Assembly (NCBI RefSeq): GCF_016862635.1 | Contig: NZ_BONI01000036.1 | Coordinates: 1 to 64,000, forward strand | Source of the DNA: Catellatospora coxensis | Lineage (GTDB): Bacteria; Actinomycetota; Actinomycetes; Mycobacteriales; Micromonosporaceae | Direction of reading: 5' to 3' | DNA: 64,000 bases | In this document: piece after piece, positions 383-60,687 of the stretch | Numbering within the stretch: position 1 is the first letter of the stretch | How the letters are laid out: every line of letters starts with the position of its first letter | Notes under the pieces: model-generated | Told to the model about the DNA's origin: nothing | The model's database searches: none | The model's input: only the letters and a program-made list of their open reading frames with translations | Position numbers and translations under genes: made by a program

Positions 383-1183
383 TCAGGGGCGCGGGACCAG
401 GGCGGCGGGGTCGAGTTCGCCGGTGAAGGTGAGGACGGCGGGGCCGGCCAGCCAGGAGGTACGGGCGTCGCGGGTCACTTCGAGGCGGCCGCCGGGGACG
501 TCGACGGTGACCGTGCCGGTGTCGCGGCCGCTGGTGTGCAGGGCGGCCACGCCGACGGCGGTCGCGCCGGTGCCGCAGGACATGGTCTCGCCGGAGCCGC
601 GCTCGTACACCCGCATGCGCCGGTGGTCCTCGCCCAGCTTGACCGAGAACTCGACGTTGACCCCGGCCGGGAACAGCACCGCGTCGGTCTCGGGCGCGCG
701 GGACAGGTCGACGGCCGCCGCGACGGAAGCGGGCACGTCGCAGACCAGGTGCGGGTTGCCCATGGAGATCGCCAGGCCGGGGTAGGTCACCCCGTCGATG
801 ACCGCGGTCGAGTCGCCGAGCAGCGCGGGCGGGGCCATGTCGACCCGGACCAGGTCGCCCTCGACGTACGCGGTGCGCAGGCCGCCCCGGGTGGACAGCG
901 GGATCTCGTCGCCGGCCAGGCCGGTGGTGTGCAGGTAGCGGGCGAAGACGCGGACGCCGTTGCCGCACATCTCCGACAGCGAGCCGTCGGAGTTCCAGTA
1001 GTCCATGAAGTAGACCGCAGCGGGGTCGGCCGAGGGCTGCACCCGCAGCACGCCGTCGCCGCCGATGCCGAAGCGCCGGTCGCACAGGGCCGCGACCAGG
1101 GCGGGCGTCAGCTCGACGGTGCCTTCGAGATCCTCGATGATCACGAAGTCGTTGCCGGTGCCGTGTCCCTTGGTGAACTTCAC
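383..1183 (-). CDS. dapF: Diaminopimelate epimerase
   Basis: DapF interconverts LL- and meso-diaminopimelate in the cytoplasm, the last step before lysine and the meso-DAP of peptidoglycan. The 266-residue product has the family length. The two catalytic cysteines lie in the expected contexts, C73 in EMCGNGVR and C203 in MSCGTGA, and GHGTGNDF opens the protein. I chose the GTG at 1181-1183 because the alignment to the family begins there and because it overlaps the miaA stop in a GTGA, which implies translational coupling to miaA. dapA and dapB lie elsewhere in this window. Confidence 0.95.
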   Translation of the reverse strand: MKFTKGHGTGNDFVIIEDLEGTVELTPALVAALCDRRFGIGGDGVLRVQPSADPAAVYFMDYWNSDGSLSEMCGNGVRVFARYLHTTGLAGDEIPLSTRGGLRTAYVEGDLVRVDMAPPALLGDSTAVIDGVTYPGLAISMGNPHLVCDVPASVAAAVDLSRAPETDAVLFPAGVNVEFSVKLGEDHRRMRVYERGSGETMSCGTGATAVGVAALHTSGRDTGTVTVDVPGGRLEVTRDARTSWLAGPAVLTFTGELDPAALVPRP

Positions 1184-2109
1184 GGCGTCTCCCTCACCAT
1201 CCGCAGCGCCTGCGCCACCAGGTCGGGGGCCGCGCCGTCGAGCCAGCGTACCGAGGGGTCGCGGCGCAGCCACGAGCGCTGGCGCCGGACGAAGCGGCGC
1301 GTCCCGGTGACGGTGTCGTCGTGGGCCTGCTGCTCGGTGCACCTACCGTCAAGGTACGCCAGGACCTGCTGGTAGCCGAGCGCCCGCGACGCGGTCAGGC
1401 TGCCCGCGAGGCCTGCCGGGAGCAGCCCGCGCACCTCGTCGACCAGCCCGTCGGCCCACATCTTGCCGACCCGCTGCTCGACGCGCACGTCGAGGTCGGC
1501 CCGGTCCACCGCGAGTTGCAGCACCGGGTACACCGGGACGGGGTCGGGCAGCGAGGCGGTGAACGGCTTTCCGGTGAGTTCGATCACCTCGAGCGCCCGT
1601 ACGATGCGGCGCCCGTTGCTTGAAAGGATCTTGTCAGCGGCGACCGGGTCGGCCGCGCGGAGTTGCTCGTGCAGCGGCCCGGGGCCGGCCTCGGCCAGCT
1701 CCGCCTCCAGCCGGGCGCGCACGTCGGGATCGGTGCCCGGGAACGAGAAGTCCTCCAGCACCGCCCGCTGGTAGAGGCCTGACCCGCCGACCAGCAGCGC
1801 GACCTTGCCCCGGCCCTGGATGTCGTCGATCGCCGCGCGGGCCAGCCGCTGGTACTCGGCGACGCTGGCGGGCTCGGTGACCGGCCAGATGTCGAGCAGG
1901 TGGTGCGGCACCCCCTCGCGCTCGGCGAGGGTGAGCTTGGCGGTGCCGATGTCCATTCCGCGGTAGAACTGCATGGAGTCGCAGTTGACTACCTCACCGT
2001 CGAGGGTGTGAGCTAGCGCGAGGGACAGCGCCGACTTTCCCGCCGCGGTCGGACCGACGACCGCGATCACCGTTGCGTCCGTTTTCACACCTGTCTCGTT
2101 CACCCGCAC
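1180..2109 (-). CDS. miaA: tRNA dimethylallyltransferase
   Basis: MiaA transfers a dimethylallyl group to N6 of A37 in tRNAs reading UNN codons; MiaB (at 13.4-14.9 kb) then methylthiolates the product. The P-loop GPTAAGKS sits at about residues 19-26, followed by the DSMQFYRGMDIGTAK region typical of the family. The start is uncertain. I prefer the GTG at 2107-2109 because a TACGGT hexamer (2116-2121) lies 6 nt upstream, as in the other leaderless genes here; GTGs at 2103 and 2088 are alternatives without a good ribosome binding site. The gene overlaps dapF by 4 nt and forms an operon with it. Confidence 0.92.
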   Translation of the reverse strand: MRVNETGVKTDATVIAVVGPTAAGKSALSLALAHTLDGEVVNCDSMQFYRGMDIGTAKLTLAEREGVPHHLLDIWPVTEPASVAEYQRLARAAIDDIQGRGKVALLVGGSGLYQRAVLEDFSFPGTDPDVRARLEAELAEAGPGPLHEQLRAADPVAADKILSSNGRRIVRALEVIELTGKPFTASLPDPVPVYPVLQLAVDRADLDVRVEQRVGKMWADGLVDEVRGLLPAGLAGSLTASRALGYQQVLAYLDGRCTEQQAHDDTVTGTRRFVRRQRSWLRRDPSVRWLDGAAPDLVAQALRMVRETP

Positions 2110-2342
2110 GGGACAACCGTAATCGGATCGTGCCCTGCGCAGCGGGGCGGAGCAGGTGCGGTGTCGGCGCAGACCCCGTAAGGTCACCTTGTCCTGGGCG
2201 CGCGCCGCGCGTCCAGCCGGACCTGTGACAATGCTGAAGGAGAGACGAACTACTCTCCCCGGTGTAACGGGTCAACTGCGCTGTGGCGGCGACCTCGCAC
2301 GAGTGGCGGGGTTCGGTCGGGAAGAACGAGGATGGGCACATC

Positions 2343-3551
2343 ATGAGCGACTGGGCATCGTATGGCCGGGTGGACGCGGACGGCACGGTCTGGGTGAAGT
2401 CGGCCGCGGGCGAGCGCGCCGTCGGATCATGGCAGGCCGGCACCCCGGAAGAGGGGCTGGCGCACTTCGTCCGCCGGTACGAGGATCTCGTCACCGAGGT
2501 CGACCTGATCGAGACCCGCCTCAAGTCCGGGGCCGCGGACGCCGCGCAGACCCTGACCACGGTCAAGCGGCTGCGCGCCGGCATGGACGAGGCGCACGTC
2601 GTCGGTGACATCGACGGCCTGTCGACCCGCCTGGACGGCCTGACCACCCTCGCCGAGGAGAAGGCCGGGGCGGCCAAGGCCGCTCGCGACGCCGCCCGGG
2701 TCGAGGCCGTGGCCCGCAAGACCGCGCTGGTCGAGGAGGCGGAGAAGCTCGCCGCCGAGTCCACCAGCTGGAAGGCGACCGGCGACCGGTTCAAGGAGAT
2801 CCTCGACGAGTGGAAGACCATTCGCGGGGTCGACAAGAAGACCGACGGTGACCTGTGGAAGCGGTTCTCGGTCGCCCGGGACAGCTTCACCCGCCGCCGC
2901 GGCGGCCACTTCGCGACGCTCGACGCCGCCCGCAAGCAGGCCCAGACCGCCAAGGACGACCTCGTCGCCGAGGCCGAGTCGCTCGCCGAGTCGACCGACT
3001 GGGCGGCCACCGCGGCCCGGCTCAAGGAGCTCATGGCCGACTGGAAGGCCGCGCCGCGCGCCTCCAAGGAGGCCGAGCAGAAGCTGTGGGACCGGTTCCG
3101 CGCCGCGCAGGACGCGTTCTTCACGCGCCGCAGCGAGGTCTTCTCGGCCCGCGACAACGAGCAGAAGGCCGCCCTGGTGCGCCGCCAGGAGCTGCTGACC
3201 CAGGCCGAGGCCCTCGACGTGGACGCCGACCCGAAGGCCGCGCAGAACGCGCTGCGCGAGATCCAGGGCCAGTGGCACGACACCGGCCGGGTCCCCCGCG
3301 AGAACGTGGCGGGCCTGGACCGCCGCCTGCGCGCGGTCGAGGACAAGGTCCGCGAGGCCATGGACGCCGCCTGGCGGCGTACCGAGCCGTCGGCGAACCC
3401 GCTGCTCAAGCAGATGCGCGAGCAGGTCGCCGAGGCCGAGGCGCGGCTGGAGCGGGCGCAGGCCGCCGGCGACGCCAAGCGCATCAAGGAGGCCGAGCAG
3501 GCCCTGGCCGGCAAGAAGAACTTCCTGGCCTTGGCGGAGAAGTCGAGCTGA
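2343..3551 (+). CDS. DUF349 domain-containing protein
   Basis: This cytoplasmic protein of 402 residues is almost entirely helical. An N-terminal segment containing VGSWQAGTPEEGLAHF is followed by three DUF349-type repeats at roughly residues 130-190, 207-265 and 280-342, each with a conserved W-K/R...LW.RF.-A pattern. The C-terminal 50 residues are a charged coiled coil. The function of DUF349 is not established. I chose ATG 2343 because GAGGA lies about 11 nt upstream and the family starts with MSDWASYGRVD. It diverges from miaA-dapF and its gene ends at a strong hairpin. Confidence 0.85.
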   Translation: MSDWASYGRVDADGTVWVKSAAGERAVGSWQAGTPEEGLAHFVRRYEDLVTEVDLIETRLKSGAADAAQTLTTVKRLRAGMDEAHVVGDIDGLSTRLDGLTTLAEEKAGAAKAARDAARVEAVARKTALVEEAEKLAAESTSWKATGDRFKEILDEWKTIRGVDKKTDGDLWKRFSVARDSFTRRRGGHFATLDAARKQAQTAKDDLVAEAESLAESTDWAATAARLKELMADWKAAPRASKEAEQKLWDRFRAAQDAFFTRRSEVFSARDNEQKAALVRRQELLTQAEALDVDADPKAAQNALREIQGQWHDTGRVPRENVAGLDRRLRAVEDKVREAMDAAWRRTEPSANPLLKQMREQVAEAEARLERAQAAGDAKRIKEAEQALAGKKNFLALAEKSS

Positions 3552-5549: not shown

Positions 5550-6938
5550 TCAGGTCAGGCCGGAGAGGTGGAGGAGGAGGGGTTTGACGTCGGTGGCGGC
5601 GAAGGCGTCGCGGTGGGCGGTGGGGTCGGAGCAGATCAGGAGGGGGCCGTCGGCGGCGTCGGTGGGCAGGCGGCCGTGGGAGCCGCGGACGGCGCGGGCG
5701 CCGGCGTCGAGGCCGACGACGTTCATCAGGTAGCGCATGCCGGCCTTCTTGCGCAGCAGGGCGGTGGCGGCGCGGCGTTTGGCGGCGGCCGGGGCGGCCG
5801 GGTCGAAGAACAGCTCGGCGGGGTCGTAGCCGGGCTTGCGGTGGATCTCGACCAGGCGGGCGAAGTCCGGAGCCTTGGCGTCGTCGAGCCAGTAGTAGTA
5901 CGTGAACCAGGCGTCGGGCTCGGCGACCAGGACCAGTTCCCCGGAGCGGGGGTGGTCGAGGCCGTACGCCGCCTTGCCGGGCTCGTCGAGCACCTGGGCC
6001 ACGCCGGGCAGGTTCGCGCAGATCTTGGCGACGACGGCCCGGTCGGCGGGGTCGGCCACGTAGACGTGCGCGACCTGGTGGTCCGCGACCGCGAAGGCGC
6101 GTGAGGTCCACGGGTCCAGGTATTCCATACCGGCCTGGGTGTGCACGCGCAGCAGGCCCTCGGCGCGCAGGGCCCGGTTGACGTTCACGGGCCGGCGCAC
6201 CGGCGTGATGCCGTACTCCGACAGCGCCACCACGGTCGCCCCCCGCGCTGCGGCGTCGTCGAGCAGCGGGGCGAGCACGCCGTCCAGCTCGTTGGCGGCG
6301 GCGGCGGCCTCGGGGCCGTACGGGCCGAAGCGCTGCAGGTCGTAGTCGAGGTGCGGCAGGTAGACCAGGGTCAGGTCCGGGGCGTGCGCGGCCATGACGT
6401 GCCGGGCGGCCCCAGCGATCCAGCGCGTCGAGGCGATGCCCGCACCCGGTCCCCAGAACTGGAACAGCGGGAACGTGCCGAGTTCCGCGGTGAGCGCGTC
6501 GTGCAGCTGCGGCGGGTCGGTGTAGCAGTCGGGCTCCTTGCGCCCGTCGGCGCGGTACACCGGCCGCGGCGTGACGGTCCAGTCCACGTCCGCGCCCATG
6601 GCATACCACCAGCAGATGTTGGCGACCGTGTAGCCGGGCCGGGCCTTGCGTGCCGCCTGCCACACCTTCTCGCCGCCGACCAGCGCGTGGTGCTGCCGCC
6701 ACAGCAGCACCTCGCCCAGGTCGCGGAAGTACCAGCCGTTGCCGACGATGCCGTGCTGGGCCGGCATGACCCCGGTGAGCAGCGTCGACTGCGCCGAGCA
6801 GGTCACCGCGGGCAGCACGGTGCCCAGCGGCGCGGAGAAGCCGGCGTCGGCGACGGCCCGCAGCCGGGGCATGTGCTCCAGCAGGCGGGAGGTCAGCCCG
6901 ACGACGTCGAGCACGACCAGCGGGGTCACGGTGTCCAC
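5550..6938 (-). CDS. Alkaline phosphatase/phosphodiesterase family protein, EboF-like
   Basis: This 462-residue protein is a member of the type I phosphodiesterase/nucleotide pyrophosphatase superfamily. An N-terminal metal aspartate (D11, VLDVVG) is followed by the nucleophile threonine T46 in LPAVTCSAQSTLLTG. Further metal-ligand contexts are LPHLDYDLQRFG and LSEYGI. A phosphodiesterase of this type is encoded in described ebo operons as EboF; its substrate is unknown. GTG 6936-6938 has AGGAGGT 6 nt upstream and overlaps the end of the EboE-like gene by 13 nt, so it is the last gene of the coupled operon. Confidence 0.85.
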   Translation of the reverse strand: MDTVTPLVVLDVVGLTSRLLEHMPRLRAVADAGFSAPLGTVLPAVTCSAQSTLLTGVMPAQHGIVGNGWYFRDLGEVLLWRQHHALVGGEKVWQAARKARPGYTVANICWWYAMGADVDWTVTPRPVYRADGRKEPDCYTDPPQLHDALTAELGTFPLFQFWGPGAGIASTRWIAGAARHVMAAHAPDLTLVYLPHLDYDLQRFGPYGPEAAAAANELDGVLAPLLDDAAARGATVVALSEYGITPVRRPVNVNRALRAEGLLRVHTQAGMEYLDPWTSRAFAVADHQVAHVYVADPADRAVVAKICANLPGVAQVLDEPGKAAYGLDHPRSGELVLVAEPDAWFTYYYWLDDAKAPDFARLVEIHRKPGYDPAELFFDPAAPAAAKRRAATALLRKKAGMRYLMNVVGLDAGARAVRGSHGRLPTDAADGPLLICSDPTAHRDAFAATDVKPLLLHLSGLT

Positions 6939-8143
6939 GGGCGGACCTCCTGCAGCTCCATCATTCCCAGCGGTGCGGTGGGGCCGCCCGGGGCCAGCCC
7001 GAGCGCGATCAGCTCGTCGCGGGCGAACGCCAGCTCGGCGGCGATGCCCGCGGCCAGCTGCGCCGGGGTCACCGGCCGCTGCGCGGGCGGCAGCACGTTC
7101 CAGGTGTACGTCTCGACGTCGACGTGGTCGCAGCCCGCGGTCGGCCCGCCGAACAGCTCCTTCAGCGCCACCCGCAGCTCGGGCAGGGTGCTGCCGAGCG
7201 GCGCGGCCGGTTCGGCGTGCAGCGGCACGTGGTAGTGCACCCGCCACGGCTGCGGGGTGCGGCGCGGGCGCGGCAGCAGCCGGTCCAGGGCCTCGCCGAG
7301 GTCGTCGGCGGCTTCGCCGCGCGAGCCGCGGGTCTGGTGCAGGAACCGCGGCTCGTCGTACCCGCGCAGCACGGCCTGCGCCGCGACCGGGTCGTCGGCG
7401 GTCAGCGCCGCGGACACCTGCACCTTGATCACCGGCAGCCCGGCGCGGGCCAGCCGGGACAGCGCCGCGGCGGGCTCCTCCCAGGCGCAGGCCAGGTGCG
7501 CGAGGTCGAGGCATACGCCCAGCCAGTCGCCGTCCATGCCGGACCACAGCCGGGCGGCCTGCTCGGTGGTCTCCACCACACAGCCGGGCTCGGGTTCGAA
7601 GCCGACCTGCACGGTGCGGCCGGTGCGCCCGGCGATGGCGGCCAGGCCGTCGGCCAGCTCCTCCAGCACCCGCCCGGCCGTCCCGGCGCGCTCGGTGTCC
7701 CACGGCTCGCGCCAGGCCAGCGGCAGCGTCGAGATGGAGCCGCGCACGGCGTCGTCGGGCAGCAGGTCGGCCAGCACCACGGCCAGGTCGAGCGTGTAGC
7801 GCAGGCGTTCCGGGGTGGTCCAGTCCGGGTGGTACACCGCGTGCTTGACGACCTCTGCCTGGAACGACTGGTACGGGAAACCGTTGAGGGTGACCACCTC
7901 CAGCCCCCGGGCGTCCAGTTCGCGTCGGAGCCTGCGGCGCAGGGGCGGCTCGGCGGCCAGCGCGGACGCCGCCGGGGCGGCCAGCCACAGGCCCAGCCCC
8001 AGCACGTCGGCGTCCAGCTCACGGCGGATGGCCGTGCCGTACGTGTCGAGCTGCGCCACGATGCCGTCGAGGTCCTCGGCCGGGTGCACGTTGGTGCAGT
8101 AGCTCAGGTGCACCGTCTGCCCGTCGGCGTGCGCCAGCCGCAT
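6926..8143 (-). CDS. EboE-like xylose-isomerase-type TIM barrel protein
   Basis: The product has 405 residues and belongs to the AP endonuclease 2/xylose isomerase-like TIM barrel superfamily. The opening VHLSYCTNVHPAEDL and the motif VTLNGFPYQ...FQ.EVVK...YHPDW are those of the family called EboE ('metabolite traffic protein'). Likely metal ligands include E183 in GFEPEPG and D213/H216 in CLDLAH. The biochemical reaction is not known. ATG 8143 overlaps the TatD-like gene stop as TGATG, a classic coupling arrangement. Confidence 0.87.
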   Translation of the reverse strand: MRLAHADGQTVHLSYCTNVHPAEDLDGIVAQLDTYGTAIRRELDADVLGLGLWLAAPAASALAAEPPLRRRLRRELDARGLEVVTLNGFPYQSFQAEVVKHAVYHPDWTTPERLRYTLDLAVVLADLLPDDAVRGSISTLPLAWREPWDTERAGTAGRVLEELADGLAAIAGRTGRTVQVGFEPEPGCVVETTEQAARLWSGMDGDWLGVCLDLAHLACAWEEPAAALSRLARAGLPVIKVQVSAALTADDPVAAQAVLRGYDEPRFLHQTRGSRGEAADDLGEALDRLLPRPRRTPQPWRVHYHVPLHAEPAAPLGSTLPELRVALKELFGGPTAGCDHVDVETYTWNVLPPAQRPVTPAQLAAGIAAELAFARDELIALGLAPGGPTAPLGMMELQEVRPWTP

Positions 8144-8991
8144 CAGGCGCCGCCCCGCTTGATCGAGTTCCCGGCGAAGTCGGCGGGCGCGTCGGCGTCC
8201 GACAGGTCGAGCCGTCCGGACGCGCCGTAGAACTCGACCGGGTTGCGCCACAGCACCCGGTCCACGTCGTCGTCGCTGAACCCGGCCGCGAGCATCGCCT
8301 CGCCGGTACGCCGGGTGAGCAGCGGGTCGGAGCGGCCCCAGTCGGCCGCCGAGTTGACGAGCATGCGCTCGGTGCCGTGACGGCGCAGCAGCTCCACCAT
8401 GCGCGGCGGGGACATCTTGGTGTCCGGGTAGATCGAGAAGCCGAGCCAGCAGCCGGTGTCGCGGACCAGCTCCACGGTCACCTCGTTGAGATGGTCGATG
8501 ACCACCCGGCCCGGGTCGATGCCGGACTCCTTCACCACGTCCAGGCTGCGCTGGGTGCCGCGGACCTTGTCCCGGTGCGGCGTGTGCACCAGCGCCGGCA
8601 GGTCGTACTCGACGGCCAGCGCGAGCTGCGCGGCGAAGGCGAGGTCCTCCAACGGGGTCATCGAGTCGTACCCGATCTCCCCGACCGCGACCACGGCGTC
8701 CTTGTCCAGGTAGCGCGGGACCAGTTCGAGCACCTCGCGGCAGCGCGGGTCGTTGGCCTCCTTCGGGTTCAGCGCGATGGTGGCGAAGTGCCGGATGCCG
8801 AACTGCCCCGCCCGGAACGGCTCCCAGCCGATCAGCGCGTCGAAGTAGTCGGCGAACGAGCCGGGGCTGGTGCGGGGCTGGCCCAGCCAGAACGACGGCT
8901 CCACCACGGCGCGCACCCCGGCGGCGGCCATCGCCTCGTAGTCGTCGGTGGTGCGTGAGGTCATGTGCACGTGCGGGTCGAAGATGCGCAT
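8143..8991 (-). CDS. TatD family hydrolase, EboB-like
   Basis: This 282-residue metal-dependent hydrolase has the amidohydrolase motif HxH (H7 and H9 in DPHVHMTSR). Other expected ligands are E105 in VGEIGYDS, H136/H139 in VHTPHR, H167 in IDHLNE and D217 in NSAADWG. TatD relatives are Mg-dependent hydrolases; the ebo-linked subfamily (EboB) has no assigned substrate. Both ends are coupled by one-base TGATG overlaps, upstream with the TIM-EboA gene and downstream with the EboE-like gene. Confidence 0.88.
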   Translation of the reverse strand: MRIFDPHVHMTSRTTDDYEAMAAAGVRAVVEPSFWLGQPRTSPGSFADYFDALIGWEPFRAGQFGIRHFATIALNPKEANDPRCREVLELVPRYLDKDAVVAVGEIGYDSMTPLEDLAFAAQLALAVEYDLPALVHTPHRDKVRGTQRSLDVVKESGIDPGRVVIDHLNEVTVELVRDTGCWLGFSIYPDTKMSPPRMVELLRRHGTERMLVNSAADWGRSDPLLTRRTGEAMLAAGFSDDDVDRVLWRNPVEFYGASGRLDLSDADAPADFAGNSIKRGGA

Positions 8992-10499
8992 CAGATCCCC
9001 TTCTCGGCTTTGAGGCGGGCCAGCAGCGCCGCCGCGTCGGCGGGCAGCTCGCGCCCGGCGGCGTGGCGCTCGTCGGCGATCCCGGCCAGCATCGCGGCGA
9101 GCTCGCTGTCGGCCCGGTGGTCCAGGTCGTCGACGCAGGTCAGCGGGATGCCCATGAACACGCACTTGACCACCGCCTGCCGCCACGCGGCCGGGTCGAG
9201 GTGCGCGGCGTACGGCCCCAGCGCCGCGGCGACCAGCCGGGTGTCGTTGGTGCGGATCGCGTCGTGCAGCAGCTCGACCGCGCTCGCGCCGAGCGGCAGC
9301 AGCGGCAGCGCGCGCAGCACCGCCCGCTTCTCCGCCGCGTCGCCGTGCCGGTAGAGCGCCCGCGCCTGCACCGCCGCGCGGTCGGCGGGCAGCGTGGCCA
9401 GCAGCACCGCGCGGGCCGCCTCGTCGGCGGTCCAGCCGGGCACGCCGAGTTCGGCGCGTCCGCAGCGGCGGGCCGCGGCGGGGAACAGCCGGCTGATCAC
9501 GGACGGGTCGGCGGCCACCCTGCGCAGCGCCTCGTCCAGCCAGCCGCCGTCGTCCACCGTGGCCAGCGCGGCCCGCAGCGCCTCGGGCGCGGGCACCGCC
9601 CCGGCCGGGCGGCGCTGCCCCGGGGCCCGCTGCCCCGCTGTGGCGGCGGTCCGGTCGGCGCCGCCGGACTGCCCGGCCGCGGCGCGCAGGAACGTCAGCG
9701 AGCGCCGCGCCACCTCCGGCGCCGCGTGCGAGTGCCGGGGCAGCTCCACCCCGACCAGGCCGCGGTATCCGGCGTCGGCCAGCGCCCGCAGCACCGGCGG
9801 GAAGTCGATCTCGCCCTCGCCGAACTCCAGGTGCTCGTGCACGCCCCGGCGCATGTCCTCGATCTGCACGTTGACCAGCCACGGCGCGGCCGCCGTCACG
9901 CAGTCGGCGACCGGCTCGGGCTCCAGGCACCGGCAGTGCCCGATGTCGAGGGTCAACCCGAACGCGCGCGGCATGCCCAGCGCCCGGTGCAGTGCCCGCC
10001 AGCCCGCCAGGTCCTGCACGAACATGCCCGGCTCCGGCTCGAAGCCGACCGGCACGCCCGCCTTGGACGCGGCCTCGGTGAGCCGGGCGCAGCCGTCGAC
10101 CAGCCGGTCCCAGGCCAGCTGCGGATCGACCGACGGCGGCCGCACCCCCGACCAGCACGACACGGCCTCAGCGCCCAGGTCGGACGCGATCGACACGGCG
10201 CGCAGCAGGAAGTCGAGCCGCACCTCGCGCTCGTCGTGCAGCAGCGTCGGCGCGTGCTTGCGCCGCGGGTCGAGCAGGTAACGCGCGCCGGTCTCGACCA
10301 CCACCGACAGGCCCAGCTCGATCAGCCGGGTGGCCAGGCCGGAGACCCGGCGGGCCAGGCCCGGGGCGTACGGGTCGAGGTGGTGGTGGTCGAGGGTGAG
10401 CGCGACGCCGTCGTAGCCGAGGTCGGCGAGCACGGCCAGCGTGTCGCTGAGGCGGTGGTTGGCGAAGCCGTTGGTGCCGTACCCGAAGCGCAGGTTCAT
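8991..10499 (-). CDS. Fusion of sugar phosphate isomerase-type TIM barrel and EboA domain
   Basis: One continuous 502-residue frame encodes two modules. Residues 1 to about 275 form a xylose-isomerase-like TIM barrel (MNLRFGYGTNGF start; putative metal ligands E154 in GFEPEPG, D185/H188 in TLDIGHC, E252 in VELPRHSH). A Gly/Ala/Pro/Arg linker (about 276-304) joins a helical domain (305-502) that resembles EboA, with TNDTRLVAAALGPYAA and the signature AWRQAVVKCVFMGIPL. No stop codon separates the modules, so they are either one polypeptide or a very recent fusion. ATG 10499 overlaps the UbiA gene stop as ATGA. The function of EboA is unknown. Confidence 0.82.
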   Translation of the reverse strand: MNLRFGYGTNGFANHRLSDTLAVLADLGYDGVALTLDHHHLDPYAPGLARRVSGLATRLIELGLSVVVETGARYLLDPRRKHAPTLLHDEREVRLDFLLRAVSIASDLGAEAVSCWSGVRPPSVDPQLAWDRLVDGCARLTEAASKAGVPVGFEPEPGMFVQDLAGWRALHRALGMPRAFGLTLDIGHCRCLEPEPVADCVTAAAPWLVNVQIEDMRRGVHEHLEFGEGEIDFPPVLRALADAGYRGLVGVELPRHSHAAPEVARRSLTFLRAAAGQSGGADRTAATAGQRAPGQRRPAGAVPAPEALRAALATVDDGGWLDEALRRVAADPSVISRLFPAAARRCGRAELGVPGWTADEAARAVLLATLPADRAAVQARALYRHGDAAEKRAVLRALPLLPLGASAVELLHDAIRTNDTRLVAAALGPYAAHLDPAAWRQAVVKCVFMGIPLTCVDDLDHRADSELAAMLAGIADERHAAGRELPADAAALLARLKAEKGI

Positions 10500-11482
10500 G
10501 TGGCCGAGATCCTCCGGACCAGGCGCCGGGCCAGCGGCGCGAGAGCGGCGAGGGCGAGCCCGGTGCCCCCGGCCCCGGTGCGGGCGGCGAGCGTGCCCTG
10601 CAGCGTCGGCAGGCCGGTGATCCCGGAGCCGACGGCGGCGCGGACCCGGGCCGCGTCCGGCTGCGCGGCGGCGCGGGCCTGCGCCCGGCCGTAGTGGGTC
10701 AGGTACCAGCCGGCCAGCGCCACCGGCAGCACGGCGCGCCAGCCCTTGCGCCGGCTCGCCCCGGCTGCGGTCGCGGCGACGGCCACCGTGCCGGCCAGCG
10801 TCGCCACCGGCAGCGTCGCGTCCGCGCCGGAGACCTCGCGCCGCGACAGCGCGGTGACGGTGTACGTGTGCGCGGCCACCGTCAGCGCCGCGGGCACCGC
10901 TTTCGCGGCCCGCCCGCCCGCCGCGCCGAGCAGCACGTCCAGCCCCCGGCAGGCGGCCATGACCGCCGGTCCCGCGGCGGTGTTCTTCGCCTTCACGTCG
11001 TACGCCCACACGGTCGCCGCCAGCGGCACGGCCGTGGCCAGGCCGCGGCGGCCGCCCGCCCACGCGGCCAGCCCGACCCCTGCCGCCGTGAGCCCGGCGG
11101 CCAGGCCCAGCGCGGCCCGGGGCGACACCCTGCCGCTGGGGATCGGCCGCTCGGGGCGCTCGACGGCGTCCAGCTCCCGATCGGCCCAGTCGTTGGCCGC
11201 CATGCCCGCCCAGTACAGGCACACCGACGCCGCCGCCAGCCCCGGCGTACGCCGGTTCAGCGTCCCGGCGGCCGCCGCCCCGGCGATCACGTCTCCGGGC
11301 ACCGACAGCGCAGCGGGGGCGCGCACGAGCTCGGCCACAGCCCGCAGCACGGCCGTCCAGCGGCCACCGCGAGAGCCCGCTCGCCGGGCAGCCGTCGGAC
11401 CGCCCGACTCACCGGCTCCGCGCGCGGCAGCATGTCCTGCCCTTGTGCCACGTCTGGCGGGCTCGCCGTCATGGCGTGTCAC
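10496..11482 (-). CDS. UbiA family prenyltransferase, EboC-like
   Basis: This integral membrane protein carries the UbiA aspartate-rich motif in NDWADRELDAVERPERPIPS. A second polar segment, YDVKAKNT, is followed by AACRGLDVLLGA, which is characteristic of EboC. About eight membrane segments follow from the hydrophobic spacing. UbiA enzymes attach prenyl chains to aromatic or sugar acceptors; the acceptor here is unknown. The start is uncertain. GTG 11482 gives 328 residues, but GTG 11350 begins at the conserved domain. A GTG at 11755 would overlap the preceding stop (GTGA) and read through the palindrome at 11541-11598. Confidence 0.8.
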   Translation of the reverse strand: MTRHDGEPARRGTRAGHAAARGAGESGGPTAARRAGSRGGRWTAVLRAVAELVRAPAALSVPGDVIAGAAAAGTLNRRTPGLAAASVCLYWAGMAANDWADRELDAVERPERPIPSGRVSPRAALGLAAGLTAAGVGLAAWAGGRRGLATAVPLAATVWAYDVKAKNTAAGPAVMAACRGLDVLLGAAGGRAAKAVPAALTVAAHTYTVTALSRREVSGADATLPVATLAGTVAVAATAAGASRRKGWRAVLPVALAGWYLTHYGRAQARAAAQPDAARVRAAVGSGITGLPTLQGTLAARTGAGGTGLALAALAPLARRLVRRISAT

Positions 11483-11540
11483 CGCGCCGGGTTTCCCCCG
11501 GCCTCCCGGCGTCCGCGCGGGCGCGGACGGCGCGTCAACA

Positions 11541-11598
11541 CGGTGGATCTTGTGCACTTCGTGTCGTCCTGACGACATCGACTGCACAAGATCCACCG
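11541..11598. repeat. Palindromic element B inside the ebo-like operon
   Basis: The 16-bp arms 11541-11556 and 11583-11598 are perfect complements (CGGTGGATCTTGTGCA). The 26-nt core has an inner TGTCGT-CCTG-ACGACA hairpin. It lies in the roughly 270-nt gap between the inositol-phosphate-synthase-like gene and the UbiA gene, the only large gap in the operon. It may attenuate transcription or separate two units. Confidence 0.7.
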
Positions 11599-11751
11599 GA
11601 GTCGGGAGGGGGTCATGCGTGACAGCGGAGTCCGGTCGGGCGGCCAGCTGGCGGGGGTCGGCGGGGCGGGCGGGGTGGCGTTGGCCCTGAGCGGCGCGCA
11701 GGGCGCGGGCGGCGGGCAGCGCCGCGGCGCGCTGCGCCTCGGTCAGCGCGG

Positions 11752-12885
11752 TCACGCCAGGCCCTCGACCATCCGGACCAGGGCGTCGAACTGGGCACTG
11801 AGCCCGTGCTCGACGTCGCCCAGCGGGTCCTTGAAGAAGAACGCCAGCTCCGGCAGCGGCCCGCTGCGCCCGGCGCGGTGCGCGGCGGCGGTGAGCCGGA
11901 CCAGGTCCAGCACCAGCGGCGCGGCCAGCGCCGAGTCGCAGCCGTGCCAGCTGAACTCCAGGCGCATCGCGGTGCCCAGGAACCCGCGGAAGGTGACCAG
12001 GTCCCAGGCGGTCTTGAACTCGCCCAGGTCCTCGACGTACTCGATGCGGGTGTCGCCCTGCGGCTGGTAGCCCAGCGTCTCGGCGAGCACCCGCTGCTTG
12101 CTCGCGGCCTTGGCCGCGTTCGGCGCGGGCTGGGCCAGGTTGGCCCCGTCGCCGCCGCCGAGCAGGTTCGCACCGGACCAGCTGCGCACGGCCAGCGCCC
12201 GCATCGCGAACATGGGCGCGAGCACCGACTTGACCAGGGTCTCCCCCGTCTTGCCGTCGTGCCCGGCGTACGGCACCCCGCGCTCGTGGGCCAGCTGCGC
12301 CAGCGCGGGCAGCCGGGCCCCGGTCGACGGGGTGAAGTCGACGTACGAGCACCCGGCCGTGAACGCCGCGTACGCGTACAGCGAGCTGGGCGGCAGCACC
12401 GGCACCGGGCCGCGCAGCGCCTCCCGCAGCACGTCGAGCGCGGCGTGCGCCTCGTGCGGCTCGGCGGCGGGCTCGGTCGACGACACGTTGACGACGACGA
12501 CGCGCCCCAGCTCGTGGCGGCGGCGGAACTCGTCGATGTCGGCGGCGACCAGCGCGGCCGTCTCGGCCTGGGTCGCGCCGCGCGGCGCGGGACGCACCTC
12601 GGCGTCCATGGCGGCCAGCTCCGGCTGCAGCGCGGTGACCAGCCGGCCGGGCAGCACGCCCGCGTCGGCGAGCGCGTCGGCCTTCTTGAGGATCGGGGTG
12701 GCGATCACGTCGTGCCCGCCGAACACCAGGTCGGCCAGGCCCGGCAGGGCGGGGCTGCGCAGCTGCGGCAGTTCCGTGACGCACCCGGTGGGCTCGGCGA
12801 GGCCCGCACGTAGCGCGACTGCTCCGACGATGCTGGTGACGGCGACCGACCCCCGCCCACCGACCAGCCAAACACCTGTTCGCAT
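11752..12885 (-). CDS. Inositol-3-phosphate synthase family protein
   Basis: This 377-residue protein belongs to the NAD-dependent myo-inositol-phosphate synthase family, which cyclises glucose 6-phosphate. VWLVGGRGSVA is the Rossmann NAD loop. GHDGKTGETLVKSVLAP, followed by the NLLGGGDGANLAQP and NAAKAASK region, matches the active-site and lysine motifs, and WHGCDSALAAPLVLDLVRL is the C-terminal family signature. ATG 12885 has GGGAG 7 nt upstream. As first gene of the ebo-like operon it may make a cyclitol for that pathway rather than housekeeping inositol; this is inference from context. Confidence 0.85.
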   Translation of the reverse strand: MRTGVWLVGGRGSVAVTSIVGAVALRAGLAEPTGCVTELPQLRSPALPGLADLVFGGHDVIATPILKKADALADAGVLPGRLVTALQPELAAMDAEVRPAPRGATQAETAALVAADIDEFRRRHELGRVVVVNVSSTEPAAEPHEAHAALDVLREALRGPVPVLPPSSLYAYAAFTAGCSYVDFTPSTGARLPALAQLAHERGVPYAGHDGKTGETLVKSVLAPMFAMRALAVRSWSGANLLGGGDGANLAQPAPNAAKAASKQRVLAETLGYQPQGDTRIEYVEDLGEFKTAWDLVTFRGFLGTAMRLEFSWHGCDSALAAPLVLDLVRLTAAAHRAGRSGPLPELAFFFKDPLGDVEHGLSAQFDALVRMVEGLA

Positions 12886-13009
12886 GCGGTCTCCCGGGGA
12901 GATGGAGGAAAAACCACGACAGATTACTTGATTCAGCCGAGACTACCGGGATTCGGACTTAGCGGCGTTTCGTGAATCATCGTCGCTGCTCACCCCCGCG
13001 TTTCGAACA

Positions 13010-13059
13010 AAGGAAGGGCACCTTCCCATCGCTATGCGATGTAGAAGGTGCCCTTCTTA
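13010..13059 (+). repeat. D element, copy 1 (50 nt)
   Basis: The element begins AAGGAAGGGCACCTT and ends AAGGTGCCCTTCTTA. The arms AAGGGCACCTT (13014-13024) and AAGGTGCCCTT (13045-13055) are perfect complements, and the core has CATCG...CGATG. Further 50-nt copies are at 28272, 42080, 52928 and (inverted) 53072. This copy is about 125 nt upstream of the ebo-like operon start. Confidence 0.85.
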
Positions 13060-13093
13060 ACGGTGACCGCAGGTGCGGCGCTGCGGTTCCCGG

Positions 13094-13169
13094 CGAAGAT
13101 CGCCGTTTCGGGTCAGGATCCGCGGTTCAACCGCAGGTTTCGCCCGCTCGCCCGCAACAGCGATCTTCG
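13094..13169. repeat. AAGATCGCCGTT-type hairpin, copy 1
   Basis: The arms at 13094-13112 and 13151-13169 are 19 bp with two mismatches, and the left arm contains GAAGATCGCCGTT. A nested GCGGTT-C-AACCGC hairpin lies inside. The same 12-mer forms the outer stem at 18515-18579. Confidence 0.6.
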
Positions 13170-13238
13170 ACCCACTGCCCGGCCACTTGCCCACCGGACC
13201 AGGGCGCGGTGACCGGCATCGTCGGCACGACGGGCCGG

Positions 13239-13327
13239 CGCCCAAGATCGCCGGACTTGCCCGGCACCTGTGCGTATCTTGAGCACGCATTCACCCATGT
13301 GCCAGGCAAGTCGAACGACCTTGGGCG
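13239..13327. repeat. Imperfect 29-bp inverted repeat
   Basis: Positions 13239-13267 and 13299-13327 are inverted copies with 24 of 29 matches, each including CGCCCAAG and ACTTGCC. It lies 55 nt beyond the miaB stop and may act as the miaB terminator. Confidence 0.55.
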
Positions 13328-13382
13328 CGTACCACGCCCGCCTCGCGCACCGGGCCGAGCGGGGCAACGCCACCCGTGGACG

Positions 13383-14912
13383 TCAGCAGGTGGTGCAGGC
13401 GGAGTCGGCAGGCACCGGCTGGGCCGGCGGCCTGCCGATGGTGGGCAGGCCGAGCATCACCCCGGCGGTACGCGCCACCCGCCCCGCCTCGTACGCGTCC
13501 CCGGCCCGGGTGCGCCGGTGCGACACCAGCGCCCCGTCGCAGTTCAGGTGGTGCGGGGCGGCGTAGTCGACCACGGTGTGCACGATGTCGCCCGGCCGCA
13601 CCAGCGCGACCTGCTCCGGCGCCACCGCGAAGTGCACGAGCCGACCGTCCCGGGCCCGCCCGGACATCCGCCCGGTGGCCTGGTCCTTGCGGCCCTCGCC
13701 GACCGCGACCAGCACCTCGACCTCGCGCCCGACCAGCTTCTTGTTCTCCGCCCAGGTGATCTCCTCCAGGGTGGCCACGAGCCGCTCGTACCGCTCCTGC
13801 ACCATCGCCTTCGGCACCTGGCCGTCCATCGTCGCCGCGGGCGTGCCGGGCCGGATCGAGTACTGGAACGTGAACGCGCTCGCGAACCGCGACTCGCGCA
13901 CCACCCGCAGCGTCTCCTCGAAGTCGGCGTCGGTCTCCCCCGGGAAGCCCACGATGATGTCGGTGGTGATCGCCGCGTCCGGCATGGCCGCGCGCACCTT
14001 CTCGATGATCGACAGGTACCGGTCGGACCGGTACGAGCGCTTCATCGCCTTGAGCACCGCGTCGGACCCCGACTGCAGCGGCATGTGCAGCGAGTGGCAC
14101 ACGTTGCCGGTCTCGGCCATCGCCTCGATCACGTCGTCGGTGAACGCCGCCGGGTGCGGGCTGGTGAACCGCACCCGCTCCAGCCCCTTGTCCCGCAGCT
14201 GCCCGGTGGCCCGCAGCAGCTTGCCGAAGGCGAGCCGGTCGCCGAACTCCACGCCGTACGTGTTCACGTTCTGGCCCAGCAGGGTCACCTCGAGCACGCC
14301 CTCGGCGACCAGCGCCTCGACCTCGGCGAGCACGTCGCCGGGGCGGCGGTCCTTCTCCTTGCCGCGCAGGCTGGGCACGATGCAGAAGGTGCAGGTGTTG
14401 TTGCAGCCGACCGAGATCGACACCCAGCCGGAGTACGTCGACTCGCGCCGGGTCGGCAGCGTCGACGGGAAGACCTCCAGCGACTCCAGGAGCTCGACCT
14501 GCGCCTGCTCGTTGTGGCGGGCCCGCTCCAGCAGCACCGGCAGCGAGCCGATGTTGTGGGTGCCGAACACCACGTCGACCCAGGGCGCCTTCTTGACGAT
14601 CTCACCCTGGTCCTTCTGCGCCAGGCAGCCGCCGACCGCGATCTGCATGCCGGGGTGCTTGTCCTTGACCGGGCGCAGATGGCCGAGGTTGCCGTAGAGG
14701 CGGTTGTCGGCGTTCTCACGCACCGCGCAGGTGTTGAAGACGACGACGTCCGGGGTGCGGCCGGGCTCGGCGGCCGGGTCGAGCCGCACGTATCCCGCGC
14801 CGTCGAGCAGGCCCGAGATGCGCTCGGAGTCGTGCACGTTCATCTGGCACCCGTACGTGCGCACCTCGTAGGTGCGGGCGGGCGCGCTCTGGGGTTCAGG
14901 CTGACTGGTCAT
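13383..14912 (-). CDS. miaB: tRNA-2-methylthio-N6-dimethylallyladenosine synthase
   Basis: MiaB is a radical-SAM methylthiotransferase that completes ms2i6A37 on tRNAs already modified by MiaA. The 509-residue protein has the three N-terminal cluster cysteines C22 (YGCQMN), C62 (NTCAVRENA) and C96 (GGCLAQKD). The radical-SAM motif CNNTCTFC gives C170, C174 and C177, and a TRAM domain closes the family region at about 400-460. ATG 14912 fits the family start; its ribosome binding site (TTGAG) is weak. The C-terminal 40 residues look lineage-specific. Confidence 0.95.
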
Positions 14913-42129: not shown

Positions 42130-42233
42130 ACCCGTCCGGGCTACCCTTGCCGACGGCCGCGCCCTCCGGCGCCTGCCCCGGACGAGTGCCTGCCGTACCC
42201 GGAACGACAAGACGGCGCGCAGAAGACACGATC

Positions 42234-60537: not shown

Positions 60538-60591
60538 GAAGCTGTGTGCTCCTTCTGTCGCGGCACGTGCCGCCCGTTGCCGGTAGGACAG

Positions 60592-60687
60592 TCGGTCTTC
60601 GATCGAAGCGCCCGGAGCTCGCTCCGGACACCACTACCGAGGACCGACCCGAACCGGCCGGCCTGGGTGTGTTGCTTGCGCCAGGCC
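60592..60687 (-). promoter_or_regulatory. Structured 5' leader of pnp
   Basis: On the transcribed strand an outer helix (60592-60597 with 60642-60647) encloses the palindrome CTTCGATCGAAG (60597-60608) and a 6-bp hairpin CCGGAG-CGAG-CTCCGG (60612-60627). Further upstream GGCCTGG (60660-60666) pairs with CCAGGCC (60681-60687). Such a leader could be the site of RNase-dependent PNPase autoregulation, as known in Escherichia coli. Confidence 0.45.

Follow-up and report, generated by a model that had tools for sequence, protein, structure and literature searches.

A putative second type of ebo biosynthetic operon in Catellatospora coxensis, with a probable substitute for EboD

Introduction

What takes the place of EboD in an ebo operon that lacks this sugar phosphate cyclase, and what does the replacement say about the product of the pathway? 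The question is raised by a 64,000-nt stretch of the 9.35 Mb genome of Catellatospora coxensis (NZ_BONI01000036.1), referred to here as the window, in which six minus-strand genes at positions 5550–12885 form an ebo operon with a homologue of myo-inositol-1-phosphate synthase (MIPS) in the EboD slot.

Ebo clusters are widespread, have been kept in plastid genomes and are required for scytonemin export in a cyanobacterium. The canonical EboABCDEF operon has been described from cyanobacteria, Bacteroidetes, Proteobacteria and eustigmatophyte plastids (PMC5133447, PMC6282210), and mutants in Nostoc and Pseudomonas have phenotypes in metabolite export and nematode defence, the Nostoc mutants having led to the suggestion of an export-carrier role (PMC6282210). 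An isoprenoid-cyclitol product has been proposed, the ring part of this proposal being based on EboD alone (PMC5133447).

Gene content of the operon

The operon comprises the following genes, given with their window coordinates:

11752–12885, minus strand: MIPS-like gene, a myo-inositol-1-phosphate synthase homologue of 377 amino acids (PF07994/PF01658), occupying the EboD slot
10496–11755, minus strand: EboC-like UbiA prenyltransferase of the SCO3242 family (NF045897), core at 10496–11338, start codon uncertain
8991–10499, minus strand: TIMx-EboA fusion, residues 1–280 being a sugar-epimerase-like TIM barrel (PF01261) and residues ~305–502 the EboA domain
8143–8991, minus strand: EboB, a TatD-like metal-dependent hydrolase (PF01026)
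6926–8143, minus strand: EboE TIM barrel (NF035939, TIM_EboE)
5550–6938, minus strand: EboF, a divergent alkaline-phosphatase-superfamily protein (PF01663)

The canonical operon shares with this one the EboA domain, EboB, an EboC-like UbiA, EboE and EboF together with their active-site columns; it differs in having EboD where the Catellatospora operon has a MIPS-like synthase and an extra TIM barrel, the latter fused to EboA, and in that the Catellatospora EboC falls in a separate subfamily, SCO3242. The order MIPS-EboC-TIMx-EboA-EboB-EboE-EboF is near-invariant over about 100 actinobacterial loci, so that the grouping of these genes can not be attributed to chance, and the orthologues proved to be clustered rather than scattered, as the original prediction expected. 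The fusion itself is a local feature: of the 101 loci scored, 13 have TIMx fused to EboA and the other 88 have separate genes for the two. TIM-EboA hybrids in Actinobacteria were mentioned in 2016, with data not shown (PMC5133447).

No EboD was found in the operon by family profile scans, and the possibility that one is hidden elsewhere in the genome was rejected: the best whole-genome match has 32% identity and is AroB-like, as is the genome's match above the cut-off of the dehydroquinate synthase (DHQS) family, compared with 62–63% identity for the true EboD of the actinobacterial genomes G381 and G601.

The protein in its place matches PF07994 at 172 bits and PF01658 at 102 bits, its nearest solved relative being the MIPS of Archaeoglobus fulgidus (1u1i, E 1.7e-66), with which it has fold family and all four catalytic lysines in common. 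It contains both the NAD-binding and the Inos-1-P_synth domain by which, with these lysines, the MIPS superfamily is recognized, and the equivalents of K274, K278, K306, K367 and N255 are invariant in 101/101 aligned sequences. Because fold family and catalytic lysines are kept, the gene is likely to encode a catalytically competent ring-former. It is distinct from the enzyme of mycothiol synthesis: against the mycothiol Ino1 model TIGR03450 it scores 35 bits, far under the cut-off of 638, and the same genome carries a separate Ino1-like gene with 28% identity to it. Its closest named relatives, from Catellatospora species, are 96% identical.

EboD and MIPS with TIMx exclude each other in the clusters sampled

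A cluster was defined as at least three of EboB, EboC, EboE and EboF and was typed by tblastn (n = 118), phyla beyond Actinomycetota being sampled through plasmid records only. MIPS without EboD was found in 103 of these clusters and EboD without MIPS in ten; none had both and five had neither. TIMx, or its haloarchaeal relative TIM2, accompanies MIPS in all 103 clusters of the MIPS type and is present in none of the ten of the EboD type. EboD on the one hand and MIPS with TIMx on the other are therefore mutually exclusive in the clusters sampled. The whole-genome check agrees with this: among the ebo-bearing actinobacterial genomes tested, true EboD is confined to G381 and G601; in the other genomes checked the best cyclase matches are AroB-like, with 31–40% identity. 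In G381 and G601 no MIPS of the ebo type was found, the only match being Ino1-like with 27–28% identity.

Clusters of the MIPS type occur in Actinomycetota, in Gemmatirosa (Gemmatimonadota) and in Halobacteria; those of the EboD type in Deinococcus, Azospirillum, Mycetohabitans, Aureibacter, Roseivivax, Salipiger, Ketogulonicigenium and two Actinomycetota genomes, and one actinobacterial family (f42) contains both (L041 and L162 versus L165 and L166). The haloarchaeal plasmid clusters encode a TatD protein, two TIM barrels, UbiA, inositol-3-phosphate synthase and EboF. The Gemmatirosa cluster (L138, typed by tblastn only) holds EboG, EboB, EboF, EboC, MIPS and TIMx, with EboE on the opposite strand. 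Apart from MIPS and TIMx it resembles the EboD/EboG clusters of Deinococcus, that is, the eboG-type operon of Deinococcus, Herpetosiphon and others (L136, L146; PMC5133447), which shares EboB, EboC, EboE and EboF with the Catellatospora operon and differs in that EboG replaces EboA and EboD is present. Gemmatirosa is thus an intermediate, with an EboG-type core joined to MIPS and TIMx.

In a tree of EboB and EboF, the EboD clade of the Deinococcus type has Gemmatirosa as its sister (support 100/100), the actinobacterial MIPS-type loci form a clade of their own (97/100) and the haloarchaea form a third. Three changes of state are required, and a single switch is rejected (log-likelihood difference 211.6, approximately unbiased test p 3.65e-73); the tree is unrooted and the direction of change can not be read from it. 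MIPS with TIMx is therefore probably a recurrent functional substitute for EboD. The ebo family is known, and SCO3242-family prenyltransferases and EboA-domain proteins have already been named by NCBI; neither the replacement of EboD by MIPS with TIMx, its exclusivity, its recurrence nor its presence in haloarchaea was found described in the open literature searched.

Several further ebo-related arrangements were observed. The C. coxensis genome has a second complete ebo operon of the MIPS type (contig C19, L033, G000:C19:53001-73000, positions 8184–14798), 63–81% identical gene by gene to the operon studied and 58% in the EboA domain, and several EboE matches are present in every Catellatospora genome sampled. 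On another contig (C40, L034, 9094–10044) lies a truncated solitary EboE-like gene with 39–45% identity over the first 250 residues. Solitary EboE homologues with 43–64% identity and no adjacent ebo genes were seen in several actinobacterial genomes (L163, L168, L169, L171–L175 and L177). A gene annotated as ScyD/ScyE family, a name associated with scytonemin (L144, 1987–3186), lies immediately upstream of a plasmid-borne Streptomyces operon of the MIPS type. In a MIPS-less ebo cluster, one of two in the Streptomyces genome G128 (L038), a CrtI-like FAD oxidoreductase lies upstream of the prenyltransferase.

The other proteins of the operon

The family labels that the original prediction assigned to the six genes hold in profile searches and in comparisons of EboB and EboF. 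The UbiA protein matches the SCO3242-family model NF045897 at 383 bits (cut-off 260) and reaches 140 of the 250 bits required by the EboC equivalog model NF035940; the motifs NDxxDxxxD and YDxxxK are present and are conserved in nearly all aligned rows. SCO3242 of Streptomyces coelicolor, the namesake of the family, and SCO3243 have been annotated within the CDA antibiotic cluster, the latter as a myo-inositol phosphate synthase (PMC3610822). The two very probably correspond to the UbiA and MIPS genes described here, their adjacency being taken from the locus numbers; they are known by annotation alone, and a relation to ebo is not stated in the papers found.

The TIMx barrel matches PF01261 at 129 bits. 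The model has a predicted local distance difference test (pLDDT) score of 88, and the closest folds of TIMx are tagatose-3-epimerase-like (3wqo, Z 30.3; UlaE, Z 28.0), with many ties at Z 27–30 among epimerases, isomerases and dehydratases that offer no choice between these activities; for one of the tied matches, the isomerase structure Art22, no precedent was found in the literature searched. EboE, predicted at 6926–8143, is confirmed by the TIM_EboE model (412 bits, cut-off 250, E 2e-123). In both barrels an E-D-x-E set is conserved, and in EboE E183, D213, Q242 and E344 are invariant in 114/114 rows. The usual metal-binding histidine of the fold reads Gln in all 114 rows of EboE, and in TIMx it reads Gln in 96 rows and His in six.

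The similarity to EboA that had been proposed for residues 305–502 is likewise supported, residues 359–492 matching the EboA_domain model NF035938 (152 bits, cut-off 50, E 1e-44); against the full-length EboA family model the score is 76 bits, under the cut-off of 320. Modelled alone, the domain is an all-helical, HEAT-like solenoid (pLDDT 96.8), its best fold matches being SF3B1 (Z 10.7) and artificial alpha-Rep proteins (Z ~8–9). Such matches, being matches among helical repeats, would indicate no specific function, and the count of seven activities predicted for the operon has to be lowered, as it included EboA, for which no activity is predicted. The solenoid model is consistent with the scaffold role suggested earlier for EboA (PMC6282210).

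EboB adjoins EboE and shares 51% identity with its Aureibacter counterpart and 43% with that of Deinococcus. Its nearest solved relative is AF_1765 (3guw, E 8e-27), and its metal-ligand columns H/H/E/H/H/D are invariant in 117/117 rows. EboF (PF01663, 216 bits) is 56% identical over 457 residues to the EboF of Deinococcus, and its Thr nucleophile is kept in 118/118 rows. We considered whether it could be an ordinary two-zinc phosphodiesterase of the NPP/PhnA type, which was rejected since the zinc ligands are not conserved: D250 and H251 of PhnA are invariantly replaced by E and Y, and H215 by Q or L. The equivalence of these ligands, like that of the epimerase ligands in the TIM barrels, is one that we presume from sequence alignment. 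The label "phosphodiesterase" should be used with care for EboF.

Gene boundaries and genomic location

The six genes stand on the minus strand as the original prediction placed them, and the four junction overlaps that it listed were confirmed: ATGA between UbiA and TIMx (10499–10496), TGATG between TIMx-EboA and EboB (8993–8989), TGATG between EboB and EboE (8145–8141), and 13 nt common to EboE and EboF (6938–6926). The fifth junction may overlap as well, a GTGA at 11755–11752 between MIPS and UbiA being in frame with UbiA. The true start of UbiA is uncertain because its N-terminal extension (11339–11755) has an atypical codon-position GC of 0.83/0.71/0.76, compared with 0.96–0.98 at the third position in the remaining genes of the operon. 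One further feature lies within this extension:

11544–11595, no strand assigned: inverted repeat with two exact arms, TGCACAAGATCCA / TGGATCTTGTGCA

About 0.04 such repeats would be expected by chance per window. The repeat varies among Catellatospora loci, being present in L056 and not in L058 or L060.

The operon is flanked by conserved genes, as predicted, each identified by a profile match:

13383–14912, minus strand: miaB, left neighbour outside the operon (TIGR01574, 451 bits, over the cut-off)
2283–3551, plus strand: DUF349 gene, right-hand flank (PF03993, 189 bits)
1180–2187, minus strand: miaA, right-hand flank (PF01715, 267 bits)

The order of the right flank is DUF349, miaA, dapF. 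The operon occupies the same site in the Catellatospora loci L056, L060 and L073, and was not found in the interval between miaB and DUF349-miaA of seven other Micromonosporaceae genomes; in L205 about 140 bp separate miaB from DUF349, with no operon. Since the interval lacks the operon in these seven relatives, the simplest reading is that it was inserted as a unit in an ancestor of Catellatospora, and the predicted insertion of a complete pathway stands to that extent; the pathway would be complete only if MIPS and TIMx replace EboD. Neither an integrase nor a tRNA target that would support a specific mechanism of insertion was found at the operon. A tRNA-Leu called by ARAGORN at 13227–13313 was considered as an integration site and is probably spurious, as an Rfam scan and the Catellatospora relatives show none. 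Elsewhere in the window there are a guanidine-III riboswitch (42154–42221, 44.8 bits, gathering score 36) and an Actino-pnp RNA element (60591–60648).

Discussion

The comparison provides the gene content, intact active sites in MIPS, UbiA, the TIM barrels and EboB, the mutual exclusion and the recurrence of the switch; from these we infer the chemical steps, their order and the product. The explanation that we favour on balance is that this is a second type of ebo biosynthetic operon, built on MIPS. The MIPS-like enzyme would cyclize glucose 6-phosphate to an inositol phosphate, which TIMx would convert to the form that EboD makes elsewhere in one step. The membrane prenyltransferase EboC would then attach a prenyl chain to the ring, and EboE, EboB and EboF would trim or isomerize the prenylated cyclitol; EboA would serve as a helical scaffold, to which TIMx is here physically tethered. 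An isoprenoid-cyclitol lipid would result, which might be a membrane carrier. It seems somewhat more probable than otherwise that this product holds both a cyclitol and a prenyl group, and the prenylated or cyclitol-derived small molecule of the original prediction is plausible; that the ring is of the C6, inositol type is a possibility to which we would give somewhat less than an even chance. The published isoprenoid-cyclitol proposal gains independent support, since an unrelated ring-former stands in the place of EboD. The kinship of the EboC core to DGGGP synthase, an archaeal ether-lipid enzyme, also speaks for this explanation.

A number of observations weigh against this explanation. Of the MIPS-type loci, 80 (among L056–L135) were retrieved with a MIPS query, which makes them valid for the absence of EboD and biases the frequency of MIPS; the loci retrieved via EboE or EboF, free of this bias, show the same pattern of exclusion. 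Five clusters have neither enzyme locally, and four of them have been explained: MIPS lies just outside the excerpt in G318, on another contig, near its end, in G653, in the second cluster of the Streptomyces genome G128, and in G279 as a distant form with 43% identity, so that none of these was retained as a counterexample. In the ebo-like cluster of Haladaptatus pallidirubidus (L151) no MIPS was found on the plasmid, the chromosome not having been searched. EboA and a true EboE are also missing from the haloarchaeal clusters. The normal product of MIPS is a reduced, phosphorylated inositol, and the characterized products of the EboD superfamily are dephosphorylated ketones; because the one is a reduced phosphate ester and the other an unphosphorylated ketone, the two routes have no simple meeting point, and the six genes include no dedicated oxidoreductase. 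Finally, the in vitro substrates described for EboC enzymes of flavobacterial ebo clusters are quinoline acids, which are farnesylated, and do not include cyclitols (PMC9235831).

In one rival explanation the two types share a logic and make different products, the EboD type prenylating a C7 cyclitol derived from sedoheptulose 7-phosphate and the MIPS type an inositol derivative, with EboB, EboC, EboE and EboF tolerating different rings. Characterized relatives near the EboD clade do use sedoheptulose 7-phosphate (PMC5133447), among solved structures EboD is nearer to DHQS (173 bits) and to the cyclase 4p53 (130) than to deoxy-inosose synthase (87), so that its own sequence similarity does not favour a C6 ring, and the shared proteins have diverged between the types (EboE 29–37% identity). 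However, the two types have the same active-site columns in EboE, EboB and EboF, and a repeated switch with the remaining set kept is easier to understand with a common product; we therefore regard different products as rather unlikely. Another possible product is an inositol-headed ether or prenyl lipid of the membrane, and neither a secondary metabolite nor an export carrier, with EboC acting on inositol phosphate in the manner of a DGGGP synthase. MIPS-type clusters are indeed present in haloarchaea, and EboC-like proteins score on geranylgeranylglycerol-phosphate transferase models (54 bits here, 66–69 in Halobaculum) and on the solved archaeal DGGGP synthase 6m31, a member of the UbiA superfamily with which the aspartate-rich prenyl-diphosphate motif is shared, though the similarity is distant (23 bits). 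The patchy distribution, with EboE over the cut-off in 132/201 Micromonosporaceae genomes and in 18/396 of a spread sample of Actinomycetota, speaks against an essential membrane lipid, as does an operon without a CDP-alcohol transferase or other head-group enzyme, and this explanation is improbable. Least credible is a catabolic or sugar-interconversion set of IolE/IolI-like barrels and TatD-like and phosphodiesterase-like hydrolases with MIPS and UbiA as incidental members. It is true that TIMx and the haloarchaeal TIM proteins resemble sugar epimerase and inosose dehydratase models, and sugar ABC transporters adjoin some clusters, but these transporters lie outside the conserved set, MIPS and UbiA are almost always present, with their active sites intact, and EboF is without the zinc ligands of ordinary phosphodiesterases, making such a set very hard to credit.

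Returning to the preferred explanation, of a MIPS route that substitutes for EboD, a C6 ring would be favoured over the published C7 ring from sedoheptulose 7-phosphate if the products of EboD and of MIPS with TIMx converge. Extended to all ebo clusters, in bacteria, algal plastids and haloarchaea, this would mean that a single kind of prenylated C6 cyclitol is made throughout, that EboD is a hexose-phosphate (inosose-forming) cyclase and not a sedoheptulose-7-phosphate cyclase, and that MIPS with TIMx was recruited repeatedly and reaches the same ring by a different chemistry, a generalization that is speculative and that we consider doubtful.

In conclusion, the recurrent exchange of EboD constitutes natural evidence on the role of this enzyme: because EboD and MIPS are both ring-formers, the intermediate that their routes share is probably a cyclitol. 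The haloarchaeal version represents a related gene set beyond bacteria. Culturable Micromonospora and Streptomyces commonly carry operons of the MIPS type, which, inositol being cheap to label and MIPS assays being standard, offer an easier point of entry into the ebo pathway.

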